A stretch of DNA of 56,368 bases, from NCBI GenBank assembly GCA_937922155.1, contig CAKZVL010000108.1, positions 1-56,368 on the forward strand, given 5' to 3'. This document shows, in pieces, positions 43,170-49,251 of the stretch. The position numbers and the translations under genes are program-made. The notes under the pieces are model-generated. The model saw nothing but the letters and a program-made list of their open reading frames with translations. It was not told where the DNA came from and did no database searches. The first letter of the stretch is position 1. The number at the start of each line of letters is the position of its first letter. This DNA comes from an uncultured Paracoccaceae bacterium (GTDB lineage: Bacteria; Pseudomonadota; Alphaproteobacteria; Rhodobacterales; Rhodobacteraceae).

Positions 43170-46063
43170 CAGCTCAACGCAGCATTACAACGACCACAAA
43201 TACCTGCATGGGAATGGCTGCCAACGTCTGGCAAAATCTTCCAACACCGTTCGCACTTATCACCGTCCGCCTTGGCAAAGCTCACCGCGACGCCCTCGAT
43301 CTCTTCGATCTTAAACGCATCTGCGGGGGCCGCATCAGTGCTGATATGAATGCCCGACGTGATGCAAAGGTCATCAAATGGAACCGTCTTCAATATCGCC
43401 GCATCCGCGTCACTGACATAAACGGTCGGCGCCGCCTCAAGGGAGGCACCAATCACCTTCGCTGTCCGCTCAACCTCAAGCGCGCCTGTCACAACCCGAC
43501 GCACACGGCGAATTGACGACCATTTGGCCGCCAGTTCATCGTTGCGCCACGTCTTTGGCGTCTCTGGGAAGTCCTGCAAATGAACCGACCCGTCCTTGCC
43601 GCGTTCCAACCAAACCTCTTCCATGGTGAACGGCAACACTGGCGCAAGCCATGTATTCAACCGCTCCAGCACCAGCTCCAAAGTCCAAAGGGCGGCGCGG
43701 CGGCGATCCGTATCGCCATCACAATACAACGCATCCTTGCGGATATCGAAATAATAGGCAGACAAATCAACAGTCGCAAACTGGAACACCGTTTGGAACA
43801 TGCCTTGGAAATCAAAGGCCGCATATCTTTCGCGCACAGCTTCATCCAGCTCTGACAAACGATGCAAAACCCATTGCTCCAACTCTGGCATATCGGCCAC
43901 GGCAACCTCTGCCTGCGACCCATCCAGATTGCCCAAAAGGAAACGATAGGAATTACGCAAACGGCGATAACTATCCGCAACGCCTTTCAGGATTTCAGGC
44001 CCGATCCGCTGATCGTTCATGTAGTCCACTTGGGCTACCCAAAGGCGCAGAATATCCGCACCATATTGCTGGATCACCTCAGCAGGCGCGATGATATTGC
44101 CGATAGATTTGGACATCTTCACGCCCTTATCATCCAGCGTGAATCCGCACGTCACCACATTACGATACGGCGCACGGCCAAGCGTTCCACAACCCTGCAA
44201 CAGCGATGAATGGAACCAGCCCCGATGCTGATCTGTACCTTCAAGATAGACATCCGCGATGCCATCCTCGGTCCCATCTTCGCGATCGCGCAGGACAAAG
44301 GCATGGGTCGACCCGCTGTCGAACCACACGTCCAAAACATCCATGACCTGATCATACTCATCCGGGTTGACGATGCCGTCCAGCACACGCGCTTTGAACC
44401 CATCCTCAAACCAAACATCCGCGCTCTGCTCTTCAAAGGCTTTCACGATCCGCGCGTTCACCTCTGCATTCTTCAGCAGGTAATCCGCATCCGTCGGCAA
44501 CGCGCCCTTCTTTGTGAAACAGGTCAACGGAACACCCCAAGCGCGCTGGCGCGACAGCACCCAATCCGGGCGGCTTTCGATCATCGAATACAACCGATTG
44601 CGCCCAGTCTGCGGATGCCATGTCACCAGTTCGTCAATGGATTTCAACGCCCGTTCGCGGATCGTATCGCCCATCTCGCCCATACCATCATCCAGCTTGC
44701 GATCGACACTGGCAAACCATTGCGGCGTATTGCGATAGATGATCGGGGCTTTGGATCGCCAGGAATGCGGATAGCTGTGCTTGATCTTGCCACGGGCCAG
44801 CAATCCACCAACCTCAACCAGCTTGTCGATGACAGCTTTGTTGGCATCCCCCTCACCGCCCTTGCGGGACAGGATGTACTTACCACCAAAGAACGGCAAA
44901 TCCGCACGGAACCCGCCGTCATCCATGACGTTATAAGTGATGACCTGCTCCAGCATGCCAAGGTCACGGTAAAGCTCAAATTCCTCCATCCCGTGGGACG
45001 GGGCGCAATGCACGAAACCAGTACCTTCGGTGTCGGTGACGAAATCAGCCGCACGGAAATCGCGGATGTCATCCCATTCGCCGTTTGAACCCTCTGCACC
45101 ATGAAGCGGGTGGGTCAAGTTAATCTTGCCCAGATCATCCGCAGTGACGTCACACAAACGACGATACATCGTTTCATCCAAACGCGCCTTGCTTAGGACA
45201 TCGCCCGCAAGGTTATCAGCAAGGATATAGCGATCCCCGATACTCAGCCAGGCCTCTTCAGGACGGCCCGTGACCTCATACAAACCATAGGAAATGTCAG
45301 CGCCATAAACGACGGCCTTGTTGGACGGAATGGTCCAAGGAGTCGTCGTCCAGATGACAACCTGCGCGCTATCCAGCGTCTTATCGCCCGTACCCACAAC
45401 CTTAAACTTCACCCAAACTGTAAAGCTCTCCTTGTCGTGATACTCCACCTCCGCCTCTGCCAGCGCGGTCTGCTCCATTGGGGACCACATCACTGGCTTT
45501 GACCCTTGGTACAAAGTCCCGTTCATCAGGAACTTCATGAACTCATCCGCGATGACGGCCTCAGCACGATAATCCATCGTCAGATAAGGGTTTTCCCATT
45601 TGCCGGTGACGCCAAGGCGCTTGAACTCATCCAGTTGCACGCCGACCCATTCGTCCGCAAAGGCACGACATTCGCGGCGGAAATCAACGATTGGCACATC
45701 GTCTTTGTTCTTGCCCTTCTTGCGGTACTTCTCTTCGATCTTCCACTCGATCGGCAGACCATGACAATCCCAGCCGGGCACGTAACGGGCATCAAATCCC
45801 ATCATCTGGTGGGAACGCACAACAAAATCCTTCAACGTCTTGTTCAGCGCATGACCAATGTGCAAATGCCCATTCGCATAAGGCGGCCCATCATGCAGGG
45901 TAAAGGGCGTGCGCCCTTCCTTCTCACGCAAGCGGTCATAAACGCCAATCTCTTCCCAACGGGCCAGCCACTCAGGCTCGCGCTTGGGCAAACCGGCCCG
46001 CATCGGAAAATCGGTCTTTGGCAGGTTTAGGGTATCTTTGTATTCGGGGGTGTCGGCGCACAT
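43169..46063 (-). CDS. ileS: Isoleucyl-tRNA synthetase
   Basis: This 964-residue class I synthetase has the HIGH-type motif HLHIGH (66-71) and KMSKS (649-653). The editing (CP1) domain lies between them, and the C-terminal zinc-binding CERCWK and CGRCNAAL are present. It charges tRNA-Ile. It heads the ileS-ogt-EamA series and is divergent from the asd attenuator. The upstream 241-base gap shows no T-box and no recognisable RNA switch for ileS itself. TolB-operon tilS elsewhere in the window prepares one of its tRNA substrates. Confidence 0.98.
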   Translation of the reverse strand: MCADTPEYKDTLNLPKTDFPMRAGLPKREPEWLARWEEIGVYDRLREKEGRTPFTLHDGPPYANGHLHIGHALNKTLKDFVVRSHQMMGFDARYVPGWDCHGLPIEWKIEEKYRKKGKNKDDVPIVDFRRECRAFADEWVGVQLDEFKRLGVTGKWENPYLTMDYRAEAVIADEFMKFLMNGTLYQGSKPVMWSPMEQTALAEAEVEYHDKESFTVWVKFKVVGTGDKTLDSAQVVIWTTTPWTIPSNKAVVYGADISYGLYEVTGRPEEAWLSIGDRYILADNLAGDVLSKARLDETMYRRLCDVTADDLGKINLTHPLHGAEGSNGEWDDIRDFRAADFVTDTEGTGFVHCAPSHGMEEFELYRDLGMLEQVITYNVMDDGGFRADLPFFGGKYILSRKGGEGDANKAVIDKLVEVGGLLARGKIKHSYPHSWRSKAPIIYRNTPQWFASVDRKLDDGMGEMGDTIRERALKSIDELVTWHPQTGRNRLYSMIESRPDWVLSRQRAWGVPLTCFTKKGALPTDADYLLKNAEVNARIVKAFEEQSADVWFEDGFKARVLDGIVNPDEYDQVMDVLDVWFDSGSTHAFVLRDREDGTEDGIADVYLEGTDQHRGWFHSSLLQGCGTLGRAPYRNVVTCGFTLDDKGVKMSKSIGNIIAPAEVIQQYGADILRLWVAQVDYMNDQRIGPEILKGVADSYRRLRNSYRFLLGNLDGSQAEVAVADMPELEQWVLHRLSELDEAVRERYAAFDFQGMFQTVFQFATVDLSAYYFDIRKDALYCDGDTDRRRAALWTLELVLERLNTWLAPVLPFTMEEVWLERGKDGSVHLQDFPETPKTWRNDELAAKWSSIRRVRRVVTGALEVERTAKVIGASLEAAPTVYVSDADAAILKTVPFDDLCITSGIHISTDAAPADAFKIEEIEGVAVSFAKADGDKCERCWKILPDVGSHSHAGICGRCNAALS

Positions 46064-46247
46064 CGGTGGCGTCCTTCAGTCATAACAATAGGAAAAAAGA
46101 GGGCGGTGCGCCATCGCAGACACCTTTGCCCGGCCACGCCTTAGCGGACCGGGATCATAATTCGTATGATTGCGAATATCATCATGCTTTGGCTTATATG
46201 CGACATCCGCGATCTTGCAAGTTAAGACAGCATTTCGAATCGACGAT

Positions 46248-46276
46248 TTGCGGCAACGTTCACCAATTCTTGCAAT
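46248..46276 (+). promoter_or_regulatory. Candidate promoter for the asd leader
   Basis: TTGCGG (46248-46253) and TGCAAT (46271-46276) are spaced by 17 bases. They would start transcription near 46283, about 22 bases before the leader ATG. An alternative pair is TTGCAA (46270-46275) with TAAACG (46293-46298). Both are moderate matches, so the exact promoter is uncertain; transcription must begin upstream of 46305 if the attenuator works. Confidence 0.3.
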
Positions 46277-46304
46277 GGCAAAGGCCACCTGCTAAACGCG
46301 CCGC

Positions 46305-46373
46305 ATGAACCAACTGATGTCCAAAACCATGACGACCAAAACCACCGCTCCGGCGGGGGTTTGTTTGGCATGA
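46305..46373 (+). CDS. Putative Thr/Met/Lys-rich leader peptide of asd
   Basis: This 22-codon ORF (ATG to TGA) begins MNQLMSKTMTTKTTAPAG. Five Thr codons, three Met and two Lys are concentrated in codons 7-14 (K-T-M-T-T-K-T-T, 46323-46346). Thr, Met and Lys are the amino acids made from aspartate semialdehyde. The last third of the ORF (46352-46367) is also the 5' arm of an antiterminator. The layout matches E. coli thrL-type leaders. The weak point is the missing strong ribosome-binding site. Confidence 0.7.
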   Translation: MNQLMSKTMTTKTTAPAGVCLA

Positions 46374-46432
46374 GGTAACATCACCTAACGTTTCAAACAA
46401 AAACCCCGCCGATCTGGCGGGGTTTTGTTTTT
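46342..46432 (+). promoter_or_regulatory. Transcription attenuator of asd
   Basis: Three mutually exclusive structures can be drawn. The pause hairpin pairs CCGC (46345-46348) with GCGG (46353-46356). The antiterminator pairs 46352-46358 (GGCGGGG) with 46404-46410 (CCCCGCC), and 46360-46367 (TTTGTTTG) with 46394-46401 (CAAACAAA), separated by a small 1x2 internal loop. The terminator is 46400-46432. A ribosome stalled on Thr/Met/Lys codons leaves 46352 onward free so the antiterminator forms; a ribosome reaching TGA (46371) covers that arm and the terminator forms. All pairings were drawn by eye. Confidence 0.75.
46400..46432 (+). terminator. Intrinsic terminator between the leader peptide and asd
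   Basis: An 11-bp perfect stem AAAACCCCGCC (46400-46410) / GGCGGGGTTTT (46416-46426), with loop GATCT, runs into TTTTGTTTTT. It points at asd, whose ATG is only 38 bases further on. A strong terminator directly before a biosynthetic gene is expected for an attenuator, not for the end of an upstream gene: no larger plus-strand gene precedes it. Confidence 0.9.
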
Positions 46433-46469
46433 GAAAACCCCGTCTTCCGGCAATCCCAAAGGAAGACCA

Positions 46470-47504
46470 ATGAACATACAACCAAGTCCTGCCCCCGCCC
46501 CCTTCGTCGCAATCGTCGGCGCAACAGGTGCTGTAGGGTTAGAGCTGATCAAATGCCTAGAATCCCGCAACTTCCCACTCGGCGCATTACGGCTCTTGGC
46601 CTCTGCAAGGTCCGCCGGGCGCGACCTGCCGTTTCGCGGTGCGGATATTCCGGTGCAGGAACTGACCGAAGACAGCTTTGTGGATGTGGACATCGCATTC
46701 TTTTCCGCCGGGGCCAGCATATCCCGCAAGTTCGCACCCATCGCTGCGGCCGCAGGGGCACAGGTGATCGACAATTCGTCGGCCTTTCGCATGGTTGATG
46801 ACATCCCCCTCGTCGTGCCCGAAGCCAACGCAAATGCCTTGCGCGATGCACAGATCATCGCCAATCCAAACTGCATCGCCGCGATCCTCACGGTCGCGCT
46901 CGCCCCGCTGCACCAACGCTGGTCAATCACACGGCTGTCTATGTCGACATACCAAGCGGCTTCCGGCGGCGGGATCGAGATGATGAATGAATTGCGCGAT
47001 GGCACCCGCGCCTATCTAGACAATCAACCTTTCGAACCTCAGGTCTTGCCGCATCCATATGCGTTCAACATCTTTAGCCACAATTCCGACATCGACCCTG
47101 AAACCGGTTACAACGGCGAAGAACTCAAAGTCATCGCCGAAACCCGCAAAATCCTCAACCAGCCTCAGCTCCCGATCAGCGTGACTTGTATCCGCGTGCC
47201 AATACTGCGTGCCCATGGCATCGCCCTGCAAATCCGGTTTGAAGATCACGTTTGCGTCGACAGCATCCGGCAAGCCTACAAAGGCGCACCCGGCGTGCGT
47301 GTCGTGGACAATATGCTCAACAATCATTTCCCGATGCCGTCCGAAGCCTCAGGCGATCCTGATGTTCTGATTGGGCGCATCCGCAACGATCTGGGCGACC
47401 CTTCCAACCGAACCACAACGATGTTCATCGTCGGCGATCAACTTCTCAAAGGTGCTGCGCAAAACGCAGTGCAAATCGCAGAGGCGTTGCTGGAACAGGC
47501 CTAG
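46470..47504 (+). CDS. asd: Aspartate-semialdehyde dehydrogenase
   Basis: This 344-residue cytosolic enzyme reduces aspartyl phosphate to aspartate semialdehyde, the branch point to Lys (and diaminopimelate), Met and Thr. The N-terminal NADP loop is VAIVGATGAVG (13-23). Catalytic Cys135 lies in ANPNCIAA, and IRVPILRAHGIALQI is in the dimerisation domain. ATG 46470 is chosen because AAGGAAG lies just upstream; an in-frame start at 46425 would lie within the terminator T tract. Control by the upstream attenuator is proposed. It is convergent with the extensin-like gene (four-base overlap). Confidence 0.96.
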   Translation: MNIQPSPAPAPFVAIVGATGAVGLELIKCLESRNFPLGALRLLASARSAGRDLPFRGADIPVQELTEDSFVDVDIAFFSAGASISRKFAPIAAAAGAQVIDNSSAFRMVDDIPLVVPEANANALRDAQIIANPNCIAAILTVALAPLHQRWSITRLSMSTYQAASGGGIEMMNELRDGTRAYLDNQPFEPQVLPHPYAFNIFSHNSDIDPETGYNGEELKVIAETRKILNQPQLPISVTCIRVPILRAHGIALQIRFEDHVCVDSIRQAYKGAPGVRVVDNMLNNHFPMPSEASGDPDVLIGRIRNDLGDPSNRTTTMFIVGDQLLKGAAQNAVQIAEALLEQA

Positions 47505-48331
47505 CGGCAGTAAGAGCCTGATCTGTATCGGGCGGTGTCAAAGTGAAAGTGATCTCGGTGAAACCGGTTCGCATTCGGCCCAAGCACCGTCCCAAACGGA
47601 CCACAGGCCCCCCGCCACATCGCAGCCAACGCCCGCCCCTTTGATCCACGTCCCCAATCGGTGAGAACAGTAATTTCATCACCGTTCTGCAAACCTATCC
47701 CCGCAATATCAATCGCGCGGCCAAAAGAATGTTCCGACAGTTTCCCGCTAGAGGCTGAATTGCGGAACCGACAAGAATAATGCGACACAACCCGCAAGCT
47801 TGCGATGCCCCCACCAATGTCACCAACCGCCGGGGCCGCCGTGCGCGTGACCCAGTTCTTCAATGCGGAGGCTGTACGACAATCAATCGTCGCGCTGGGG
47901 CTAAGCGAAACACCCGCCACAGATCGCACGCGCACGCCACTGTCAATTCCACAGCGGCCACGGCCAGCCACAGCCCCCAAGGCGACACCCTGAATGGCCG
48001 GATCACCGCAAACCTGCCCACGGCGGCGCGCTGTTTCAATCGCGCGGGCCTGCTGCGTAATCGCAGCCGGACGCACAAAAGGGCGCAAAGATTGCATCAG
48101 ATGGTTGTGGACAAACGGACGCAGGCTGGGGCGTTTATCGACCGTGGGCGGCACGATCACGGTCAAGTACGCTTCAATACCGGCCGGACGCTGAAATGGA
48201 CGCACCCCCACCCCAACGCTTATCGCGGGCGCTGTACGGGTACTAACGCGCGGCTCAACCTCCGTGGCATGATGCCCCTCCGCATGGGCCAACCCGGCGC
48301 ATAGGGCCAGAATGATCGCCAACGCGCGCAT
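47501..48331 (-). CDS. Extensin-like C-terminal domain protein
   Basis: This 276-residue exported protein has a signal peptide (ALAIILALCAGLAHAEG), a Pro/Arg-rich spacer (about 20-100), then the extensin-like domain. That domain contains LKNWVTRTAAPAV, RVVSHYSCRFRNSASSGKLS, EHSFGRAIDIAGI and RFHRDHFHFDTARYR. The His/Asp arrangement (EHSFGRAIDI, HRDHFHFD) resembles LAS/DD-peptidase-like zinc sites, so a peptidoglycan-related role is possible but unproven. It overlaps the tyrC stop as TGATG and so ends the hisC-tyrC series. Confidence 0.85.
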   Translation of the reverse strand: MRALAIILALCAGLAHAEGHHATEVEPRVSTRTAPAISVGVGVRPFQRPAGIEAYLTVIVPPTVDKRPSLRPFVHNHLMQSLRPFVRPAAITQQARAIETARRRGQVCGDPAIQGVALGAVAGRGRCGIDSGVRVRSVAGVSLSPSATIDCRTASALKNWVTRTAAPAVGDIGGGIASLRVVSHYSCRFRNSASSGKLSEHSFGRAIDIAGIGLQNGDEITVLTDWGRGSKGRALAAMWRGACGPFGTVLGPNANRFHRDHFHFDTARYRSGSYCR

Positions 48332-49251
48332 CAGTCCTTTTTCACCGGGGCGCGGCCAAAATCCGGCGCGGCGGTATCCTGACCGGCATCAATAATCCCA
48401 CGACGAATGGCGCGGGTCCGCGTGAAATAGTCAAACAAGTGGTCACCATCACCCATGCGGATCGCGCGCTGCAAGGCGAACAGCTCTTCGGTGAAACGAC
48501 CCAAGATTTCCAAGGTCGCCTCCTTATTCGTCAAAAACACATCGCGCCACATTGTCGGGTCAGACGCGGCAATGCGGGTAAAATCGCGAAAGCCCGCAGC
48601 AGAATATTTGATCACTTCAGTGTCAGTGACGCGGTGCAAATCGTCTGCCACACCTACCATCGTGTACGCGATCAGGTGCGGCGCATGAGACACCACAGCA
48701 CAGACCAAATCGTGGTGATCGACCTCCATCATGTTGATGTTGGATCCCAGACCAGCCCAAAAATCCGTGAGCCGGGTCAAAGCGGCCTCATCCACATTTT
48801 CCGGTGGCACGATCAAACACCAACGGTTGTCAAACAGCTCTGCAAATCCCGACCGAGGGCCAGAATGTTCGGTGCCCGCCATGGGGTGGCCGCCAATAAA
48901 ATGCACACCCTTGGGCAACTGCGGGATCACGGCATCAAAAACGGCTCGTTTCACCGATCCCACATCGCTGACCGTCGCACCGGGTTTCAGTGCGGGTGCA
49001 ATGTCTTGCATCACAGCGCCCATAGCACCAATCGGCACGCACAACACAACCAAATCCGCGCCCTCAACAGCCTCAGCCGCGCTGTCAAAGACGGTACATA
49101 AATCCAACTCCCGCGCCGTCTCGCGCGTCTCGGCAGAACGGGCAAAGCCGGTAATCTCGCGCGCCACACCGGCACGCTTGATCGCATGGCACATGGACGA
49201 GGCGATCAAACCAAGCCCGATCAGCGCAACCTTGTCATAAATCACACTCAT
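48331..49251 (-). CDS. tyrC: Prephenate/arogenate dehydrogenase family protein
   Basis: This 306-residue enzyme of tyrosine synthesis has an N-terminal Rossmann motif ([20 protein letters not shown]). [20 protein letters not shown] is the hallmark block of TyrA/TyrC dehydrogenases, and [13 protein letters not shown] and [20 protein letters not shown] continue the family pattern. There is no ACT or chorismate-mutase domain. It catalyses NAD(P)-dependent oxidative decarboxylation of prephenate or arogenate; which substrate is preferred cannot be read from sequence. It overlaps hisC as ATGA. Confidence 0.93.

Follow-up and report, generated by a model that had tools for sequence, protein, structure and literature searches.

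The region upstream of asd in the window (the whole stretch of 56,368 nucleotides that was analyzed) very probably contains a ribosome-mediated attenuator that couples asd to the supply of tRNA-Thr and tRNA-Lys in charged form, tRNA-Met being perhaps a further input in this lineage. The leader ORF, the RNA segments, their mutual exclusivity, the dependence of structure on ribosome position in the window, the conservation in relatives, and the promoter spacing were all obtained by computation. In the mechanism that we infer from them, which comprises starvation sensing, termination, leaderless initiation, and a translational layer, transcription would start at or just 5' of the leader AUG and, when Thr or Lys is scarce, the ribosome would stall in a K-T-M-T-T-K-T-T run, upon which segment 2 of the RNA would pair with segment 3, no terminator would form, and asd would be transcribed. 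When both Thr and Lys are plentiful, the ribosome would pass codon 16 and cover segment 2, the hairpin between segments 3 and 4 (3:4) would form, and transcription would stop. In many relatives without a U-tract, a hairpin covering the Shine-Dalgarno (SD) sequence may substitute, the same switch then probably acting on translation. The asd product catalyzes a step shared by the routes to lysine, threonine, and methionine, and an attenuator of this type would read two branch end products at once; such dual reading of Thr and Lys would help to explain how the aspartate pathway is managed in Alphaproteobacteria. Judged from sequence comparison, an asd leader attenuator appears to recur in many related bacteria, and it has hardly been described before.

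The gene concerned (asd, 46470-47504, forward strand) encodes an aspartate-semialdehyde dehydrogenase of 344 residues, which scores 367.4 bits against a cut-off of 324.2 for NCBIfam TIGR01296 and is the second paralog in the genome. The other asd, on another contig (G000:C50:19312-20295; L002), is 41% identical to that of the window and joins the usual Rhodobacteraceae asd in a tree of 93 asd proteins, in which the window asd falls in a different clade; a Thr/Lys leader was looked for before this usual-type copy and was not found. An ileS-like gene, named by eye, diverges from asd on the minus strand with its start at 46063, and the 406 nt that separate the two contain, in this order, promoter-like boxes, a 22-codon ORF, a hairpin, and a U-tract.

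The leader peptide ORF (46305-46373, forward strand; MNQLMSKTMTTKTTAPAGVCLA, followed by a stop codon) is evident in the sequence, is conserved in relatives, and probably lies on a leaderless or near-leaderless mRNA. The initial annotation had described a 22-codon ORF with a K-T-M-T-T-K-T-T run just before a terminator, and this ORF is indeed present; the run occupies residues 7-14 (46323-46346, forward strand), a modeled ribosome on any of these control codons gives the antiterminator, and the stop codon lies 26 nt 5' of the terminator hairpin core. An ORF equally rich in Thr, Lys, and Met arose in 7 cases when the 406-nt intergenic region was shuffled 2000 times, and terminated leaders can serve as small RNAs, an example in the available text being rnTrpL of S. 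meliloti (PMC7298713), so that an ordinary terminator or small RNA gene, preceded by an ORF that is Thr/Lys-rich by chance, has to be weighed. This explanation is highly improbable because dozens of genomes share the position and codon content of the ORF, the spacing of the promoter, and the association with the gene. Taken on its own, without relatives, the window makes a suggestive case for an attenuator, and the case becomes convincing because the leader is conserved in relatives. When the T/K/M score was also run on 28 other asd upstream regions as controls, the means were 0.329 for the leader set and 0.166 for the controls, with overlapping ranges (the lowest leader scored 0.172 and the highest control 0.42). 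This top-scoring control (L006, genome G037) looks like a genuine Thr/Lys leader in its own right; it lies upstream of an asd of the other clade, its ORF ends in ...MAAPTTTKKTKTVA and is followed by a GC-rich repeat, and it possibly represents another gain of a leader on that clade.

Conservation was assessed in three collections. Among 385 genomes searched across the class, 29 have a close relative of the window asd (E at most 1e-85), and a Thr/Lys-rich leader ORF lies within 420 nt upstream of 19 of these (L035 and L039 being weaker cases) and was not recognized upstream of the other 10. In the family, only 18 of 394 sampled Rhodobacteraceae genomes have a window-type asd (E ≤ 1e-85), and leader and hairpin precede asd in 17 of these 18, the exception being L154, whose asd match begins at residue 40. 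Finally, in a named collection, the leader was found in at least 12 asd relatives (12 of the best 80, with L064 weak), the carriers including Yoonia maritima, Marivivens donghaensis, Acidisphaera, and five Bradyrhizobium records. Conservation in relatives, on which the initial annotation had staked its proposal, is thus what was found: Thr/Lys leaders with a GC-rich hairpin occur in many Alphaproteobacteria. On the asd tree, the leader label requires 6 changes compared with 30.0 when labels are shuffled, a difference to which near-copies contribute.

For further comparison, 47 leaders were gathered, and removal of two exact duplicates (L144, of L060, and L070, of L055) left 45; L064 was left out of the codon counts, giving 44, and 2 of the 26 leaders from outside Rhodobacterales fall outside the codon-core window of the codon analysis. 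Thr (2-9) and Lys (1-5) occur in 44 of 44 counted leaders, although the ORFs, those before asd and before thrS alike, had been chosen for T/K/M or T+K richness, a choice that favors Lys in both. Met beyond the start codon accounts for 6.6% of residues in the 18 Rhodobacterales leaders, of which typical cores are TKTTTKTTAPAGV, and for 15 of 606 residues in the 26 others. The rich codons had been given as those for Thr, Met, and Lys, the three end products; Thr and Lys are constant, but Met is limited by lineage. Differences among the 18 Rhodobacterales cores number 324, 665, and 872 at first, second, and third codon positions, a pattern as in translated sequence, in which the first-position count is lowered because A is the first base of every Thr, Lys, and Met codon.

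The RNA elements downstream of the control codons all lie on the forward strand. The intrinsic terminator (46395-46432), supported by terminator scan, folding, and covariation, consists of hairpin 3:4, with arms at 46395-46411 and 46415-46430, and a U-tract that extends to 46432. A scan of both strands of 45500-48500 gave 6 terminator-like sites where 3.9 were expected, and among these six the hairpin at 46400-46426, which precedes GTTTTTG, exceeds the others widely in stem length (12 pairs, compared with 5-6), which bears out the earlier assignment of an intrinsic terminator aimed at asd. Folding of the 46280-46470 RNA, which had been suggested as a check, gave a structure more stable than those of dinucleotide shuffles (z -3.22; 1 of 200 equally good). 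Segment 2, the 5' arm of the antiterminator (46351-46372), forms 20 bp with segment 3 (46389-46411), which is common to antiterminator (2:3) and terminator, with a folding energy of -30.4 kcal/mol, and none of 200 shuffles matched this pairing; the 15-bp pairing of 46352-46367 with 46394-46410 in the initial annotation is therefore real, but its extent is greater. The pause hairpin proposed at 46345-46356 (1:2) does exist as a short and possible pause structure, yet by eye it comprises merely about 4 bp. An alternative hairpin, 4:5 (46416-46444), in which 46416-46426 pairs with 46434-46444 over 11 bp, is predicted when segment 2 holds segment 3, and a further hairpin, 5:6 (46442-46467), identified by folding and shuffles, pairs GTCTTCC (46442-46448) with GGAAGAC (46461-46467) over the asd SD. 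The window thus combines a leader ORF, a terminator, and a mutually exclusive antiterminator that overlaps the 3' end of the leader ORF, as an attenuator should.

The effect of ribosome position was modeled by placing the A site at each codon in turn, the RNA being hidden as far as 12 nt from that codon's first base, and in the main calculation the window transcript was folded as far as 46452. With the A site at codons 5-16, the model gives 9-19 expected pairs of antiterminator and <1 of terminator, whereas from codon 17 on it gives 14-15 pairs of terminator and <1 of antiterminator; the structural flip occurs three codons beyond the last control codon. In the window, by computation, the stall position therefore sets the structure, as is expected of an attenuator, and the classical logic proposed in the initial annotation is reproduced by the model. 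The result depends on transcript length: when the window transcript is cut at the end of the hairpin, the antiterminator is favored at 4 of the 7 counted control codons, and with the same cut only 20 of 45 homologs form the antiterminator at half or more of their control codons. With the longer transcript and the ribosome at its best stall, 37 of 45 homologs form 5 bp or more of 2:3, but only 19 lose at least 3 bp of 3:4 in comparison with the stop position. Hairpin 3:4 prevails in all 45 homologs when the ribosome stands at its last readable position. The likeness to a textbook attenuator extends to the switch by ribosome position but not to the ribosome-free leader, which in the window is predicted to fold as the antiterminator, a behavior that differs from the textbook trp picture. 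Because the ribosome-free RNA prefers the antiterminator, absence of leader translation would lead to readthrough and not to super-termination.

Hairpin 3:4 was found in all 45 leaders, 35 of which were used in the alignment for covariation of its helix and 42 in that for a covariance model. In the 35 aligned leaders, 5 pairs of the 3:4 helix have changed on both sides, and the covariation score is 0.173, compared with 0.084 for shuffled and at most 0.087 for slid versions. No pair of the 2:3 core has changed on both sides in the aligned leaders; this core is nearly invariant and therefore neither supports nor refutes the antiterminator. Of the compensatory changes that the initial annotation had looked to relatives for, those in the terminator helix are thus seen, but the antiterminator core has none. 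Pairings matched by at most 10 of 200 shuffles were obtained for 2:3 in 15, for 4:5 in 20, and for 5:6 in 13 of the 45 leaders, where about 2 of 45 would be expected by chance in each test. Strong, conserved hairpins in a 5' leader could also belong to a riboswitch or another metabolite-binding RNA to which the short ORF is incidental. We regard this as most improbable: no Rfam family reaches its threshold over 45900-47700, the alignments, in our reading, conserve peptide codons and complementary arms with no aptamer-like block, and the Lys codons in the Thr run track the gene that is controlled.

The promoter region bears on how the leader is translated. On the basis of homolog spacing, the leader/asd promoter has a -35-like element, CTTGCA (46269-46274, forward strand), and a -10-like element, GCTAAA (46291-46296, forward strand), which would place the transcription start near the leader ATG. 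Counted back from the leader ATG, 41 of 45 homologs have a -35-like TTxxx between -42 and -32, mostly at -37 or -36, compared with a mean of 2.3 in shuffles, and 39 of 45 have TA between -15 and -10, compared with a shuffled mean of 7.2. A tetramer resembling an SD precedes the leader ORF in 2 of 45 homologs and the asd start in 34 of 45, the asd starts having themselves been chosen with an SD score. The conserved distance from promoter to ATG suggests a leaderless mRNA with a predicted start within a few nucleotides of the AUG, and the leader SD would be absent because the transcript is likely to be leaderless. The lack of an SD ahead of the leader ORF, which the initial annotation had counted as its weak point, is confirmed for the window, but the lack is itself conserved and fits a transcript of this kind. 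Annotation methods based on the SD may miss such leader peptides, which are possibly leaderless. There is a parallel in trpL of S. meliloti, the transcript of which begins with the leader ATG according to the available portions of two reports (PMC7298713, PMC10117765).

A good U-tract is not general among the relatives. At least 5 T within 9 nt after the hairpin are present in only 17 of 45 leaders, the other 28 being U-poor; L066, of the Bradyrhizobium type, is a U-rich leader, and L149 and L151 represent the U-poor kind. In the U-poor leaders, the downstream segment 5 tends to pair with the hairpin loop and 3' arm (the mean z for 4:5 is -1.98 in the 28 U-poor and -0.55 in the 17 U-rich leaders); the asd SD is another possible partner of this segment (5:6). 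Pairing of the SD is stronger in the asd leaders than at the starts of 41 other genes of the window (-11.3 vs. -8.7 kcal/mol mean, p 0.002), and the SD hairpin of the window asd was equaled by none of 100 shuffles. When the window RNA is folded with the SD not yet transcribed, a ribosome at the stop position gives 12.4 bp of 3:4 and 0.1 bp of 4:5, and a stalled ribosome gives 11.0 bp of 4:5 and 0.0 of 3:4. These features are those of a translational attenuator, in which the leader ribosome mainly sets access to the asd SD through 4:5 versus 5:6 and termination is secondary. As an account of the window this is rather unlikely, however. At equilibrium, with the SD present, neither the window nor most homologs show any dependence of SD access on where the ribosome stands; in the window, 4:5 and 5:6 overlap by only 3 nt and coexist in the stalled fold; stalling adds at least 3 bp of 4:5 in only 11 of the 28 U-poor and 3 of the 17 U-rich leaders; and the window possesses a good U-tract. 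The model results therefore favor attenuation mainly by termination in the window, with a possible second layer on translation, and this layer would rest on kinetics because equilibrium SD access ignores ribosome position. The window carries both features, a U-tract and an SD-covering hairpin, and the U-poor relatives probably act on translation; with their SD hairpins they offer a testable case of an attenuator shifting from transcription to translation. Two other schemes were set aside: thermodynamic switching of the SD by ribosome position obtained no support from equilibrium folding, and SD mimicry, in which segment 4 would copy the SD to compete for segment 5, was dropped, the shared word being no better than in shuffles (for the longest common word, one U-poor leader of 28 and none of the 17 U-rich leaders reached q ≤ 10 in 200).

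Among known systems, the family RF00506 (Thr_leader) aligns with 46313-46431 (E 0.0037), its score of 30.1 bits lying below the gathering score of 55. The enterobacterial thr attenuator represented by this family likewise has a Thr-rich leader and terminator/antiterminator logic; its leader has Ile as second amino acid and controls thrABC, whereas the window has Lys rather than Ile, asd rather than thrABC, and a leader ORF without an SD. Control of thrA by Thr, Ile, and Met in Pasteurellales was reportedly predicted by Vitreschak in 2004, and would be an earlier case in which one leader answers to several amino acids. T-boxes differ from the asd leader in sensing tRNA directly, without a leader peptide. 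Those of actinobacterial ileS, in the available text, resemble it as charge sensors in which an SD-covering hairpin replaces the terminator (PMC1262725). In Rhodobacterales, uORFC-8-2 before cysS is likewise a uORF thought to sense charged tRNA, but it has Cys codons and precedes a tRNA synthetase gene, as far as the available part of the report goes (PMC8632094). The trpL leader of S. meliloti shares with the asd leader an alphaproteobacterial setting, dependence on the ribosome, and a transcript that begins at the leader ATG, and differs in having Trp codons and controlling trpE(G); the available portions of the two reports cited above make no mention of an SD-hairpin alternative.

The mainly open literature that was searched describes no asd attenuator in Alphaproteobacteria, with the exception of a remark on SEP5 of S. 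meliloti, and asd appears nowhere in the main text, as available, of Naville and Gautheret 2010 (PMC2965389). The statement in the initial annotation that no asd case had been described therefore stands for Rhodobacterales, but SEP5 is a partial precedent. According to the available part of its report (PMC10117765), SEP5 is located in the 5' UTR of a gene called aspartate dehydrogenase, contains six Thr and three Lys codons clustered toward its 3' end, is translated as judged by Ribo-seq and western blot, is proposed by the authors as a possible leader peptide, and is described as conserved only in Sinorhizobium. The S. meliloti Ak57 ORF before asd, annotated as a hypothetical protein, ends in ARKTTAKTTTKTV, with six Thr and three Lys. 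The ORF before S. meliloti asd (L155:705-875, CP090106.1), which ends KTTAKTTTKTV, has an annotated TTG start; read from an internal ATG it has 39 residues, and its Thr/Lys cluster agrees with SEP5. Codon counts and position thus point to SEP5 being the Ak57 ORF before asd, and SEP5, thought to be restricted to Sinorhizobium, may be re-read as an instance of a wider system. Like the window leader, it is a short Thr/Lys-rich ORF upstream of asd, but it precedes an asd of the other clade and has its cluster at the 3' end of the ORF; the account of SEP5, in the part available, names no terminator or antiterminator.

The RNA core is also found before other genes. The covariance model was built from the 42 aligned asd leaders, is mostly a sequence model because it has only 5 base pairs, and was searched in 385 genomes; in the window's own genome no further copy was found, the next best match having an E of 0.096. 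Elsewhere it also matches upstream of thrS-like genes, with E down to 2e-12. The two thrS-like proteins checked (L192 and L195) both pass the thrS cut-off; the others were recognized by eye from translations, L201 from its first residues only. All 13 thrS-like leaders carry at least 3 Thr, and the -35 spacing is kept in 12 of the 13. Lys is present in the Thr-densest nine residues of 2 of the 13 thrS-like leaders compared with 52 of 52 asd leaders, and anywhere after residue 4 in 5 of the 13 (first-ATG ORFs) compared with 52 of 52, contrasts to which no p value is attached because the ORFs were picked for Thr/Lys richness and the genomes are related. Leaders with Thr runs, mostly without Lys, are seen in L169, L171, L181, L184, L192, L193, L195, L207, and others, for example MHRVAHLCTTTTTTTRFGGPDGVVMR. 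Leaders with Thr and Lys before asd and mostly Lys-free Thr leaders before thrS, on one core, would make codon-level specificity testable.

Three further matches (L206, L208, and L210) precede dapA, the proteins passing the dapA cut-off. A clear leader ORF is present only in L206 and L210, with 1 and 2 Lys, respectively, and L208 has a Lys-rich frame without a stop in the stretch viewed; these loci give no more than a hint of a Lys-coded attenuator before dapA. A broader reading, which we put forward tentatively, its probability being close to but below that of its converse, is that these leaders belong to an alphaproteobacterial attenuator platform with a leaderless start and a common hairpin core, retargeted by recoding of the leader (Thr and Lys for asd, Thr for thrS, perhaps Lys for dapA) and with the U-tract exchanged for an SD hairpin, some members, the window included, acting at both levels. 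Separately, the model matches leaders of the MTRxxx...VR type before other genes (L194, L200, and L205), and a single genome, G092, has three leaders of the THxGGPS type (L178, L202, and L209); both groups are possible further attenuator classes.
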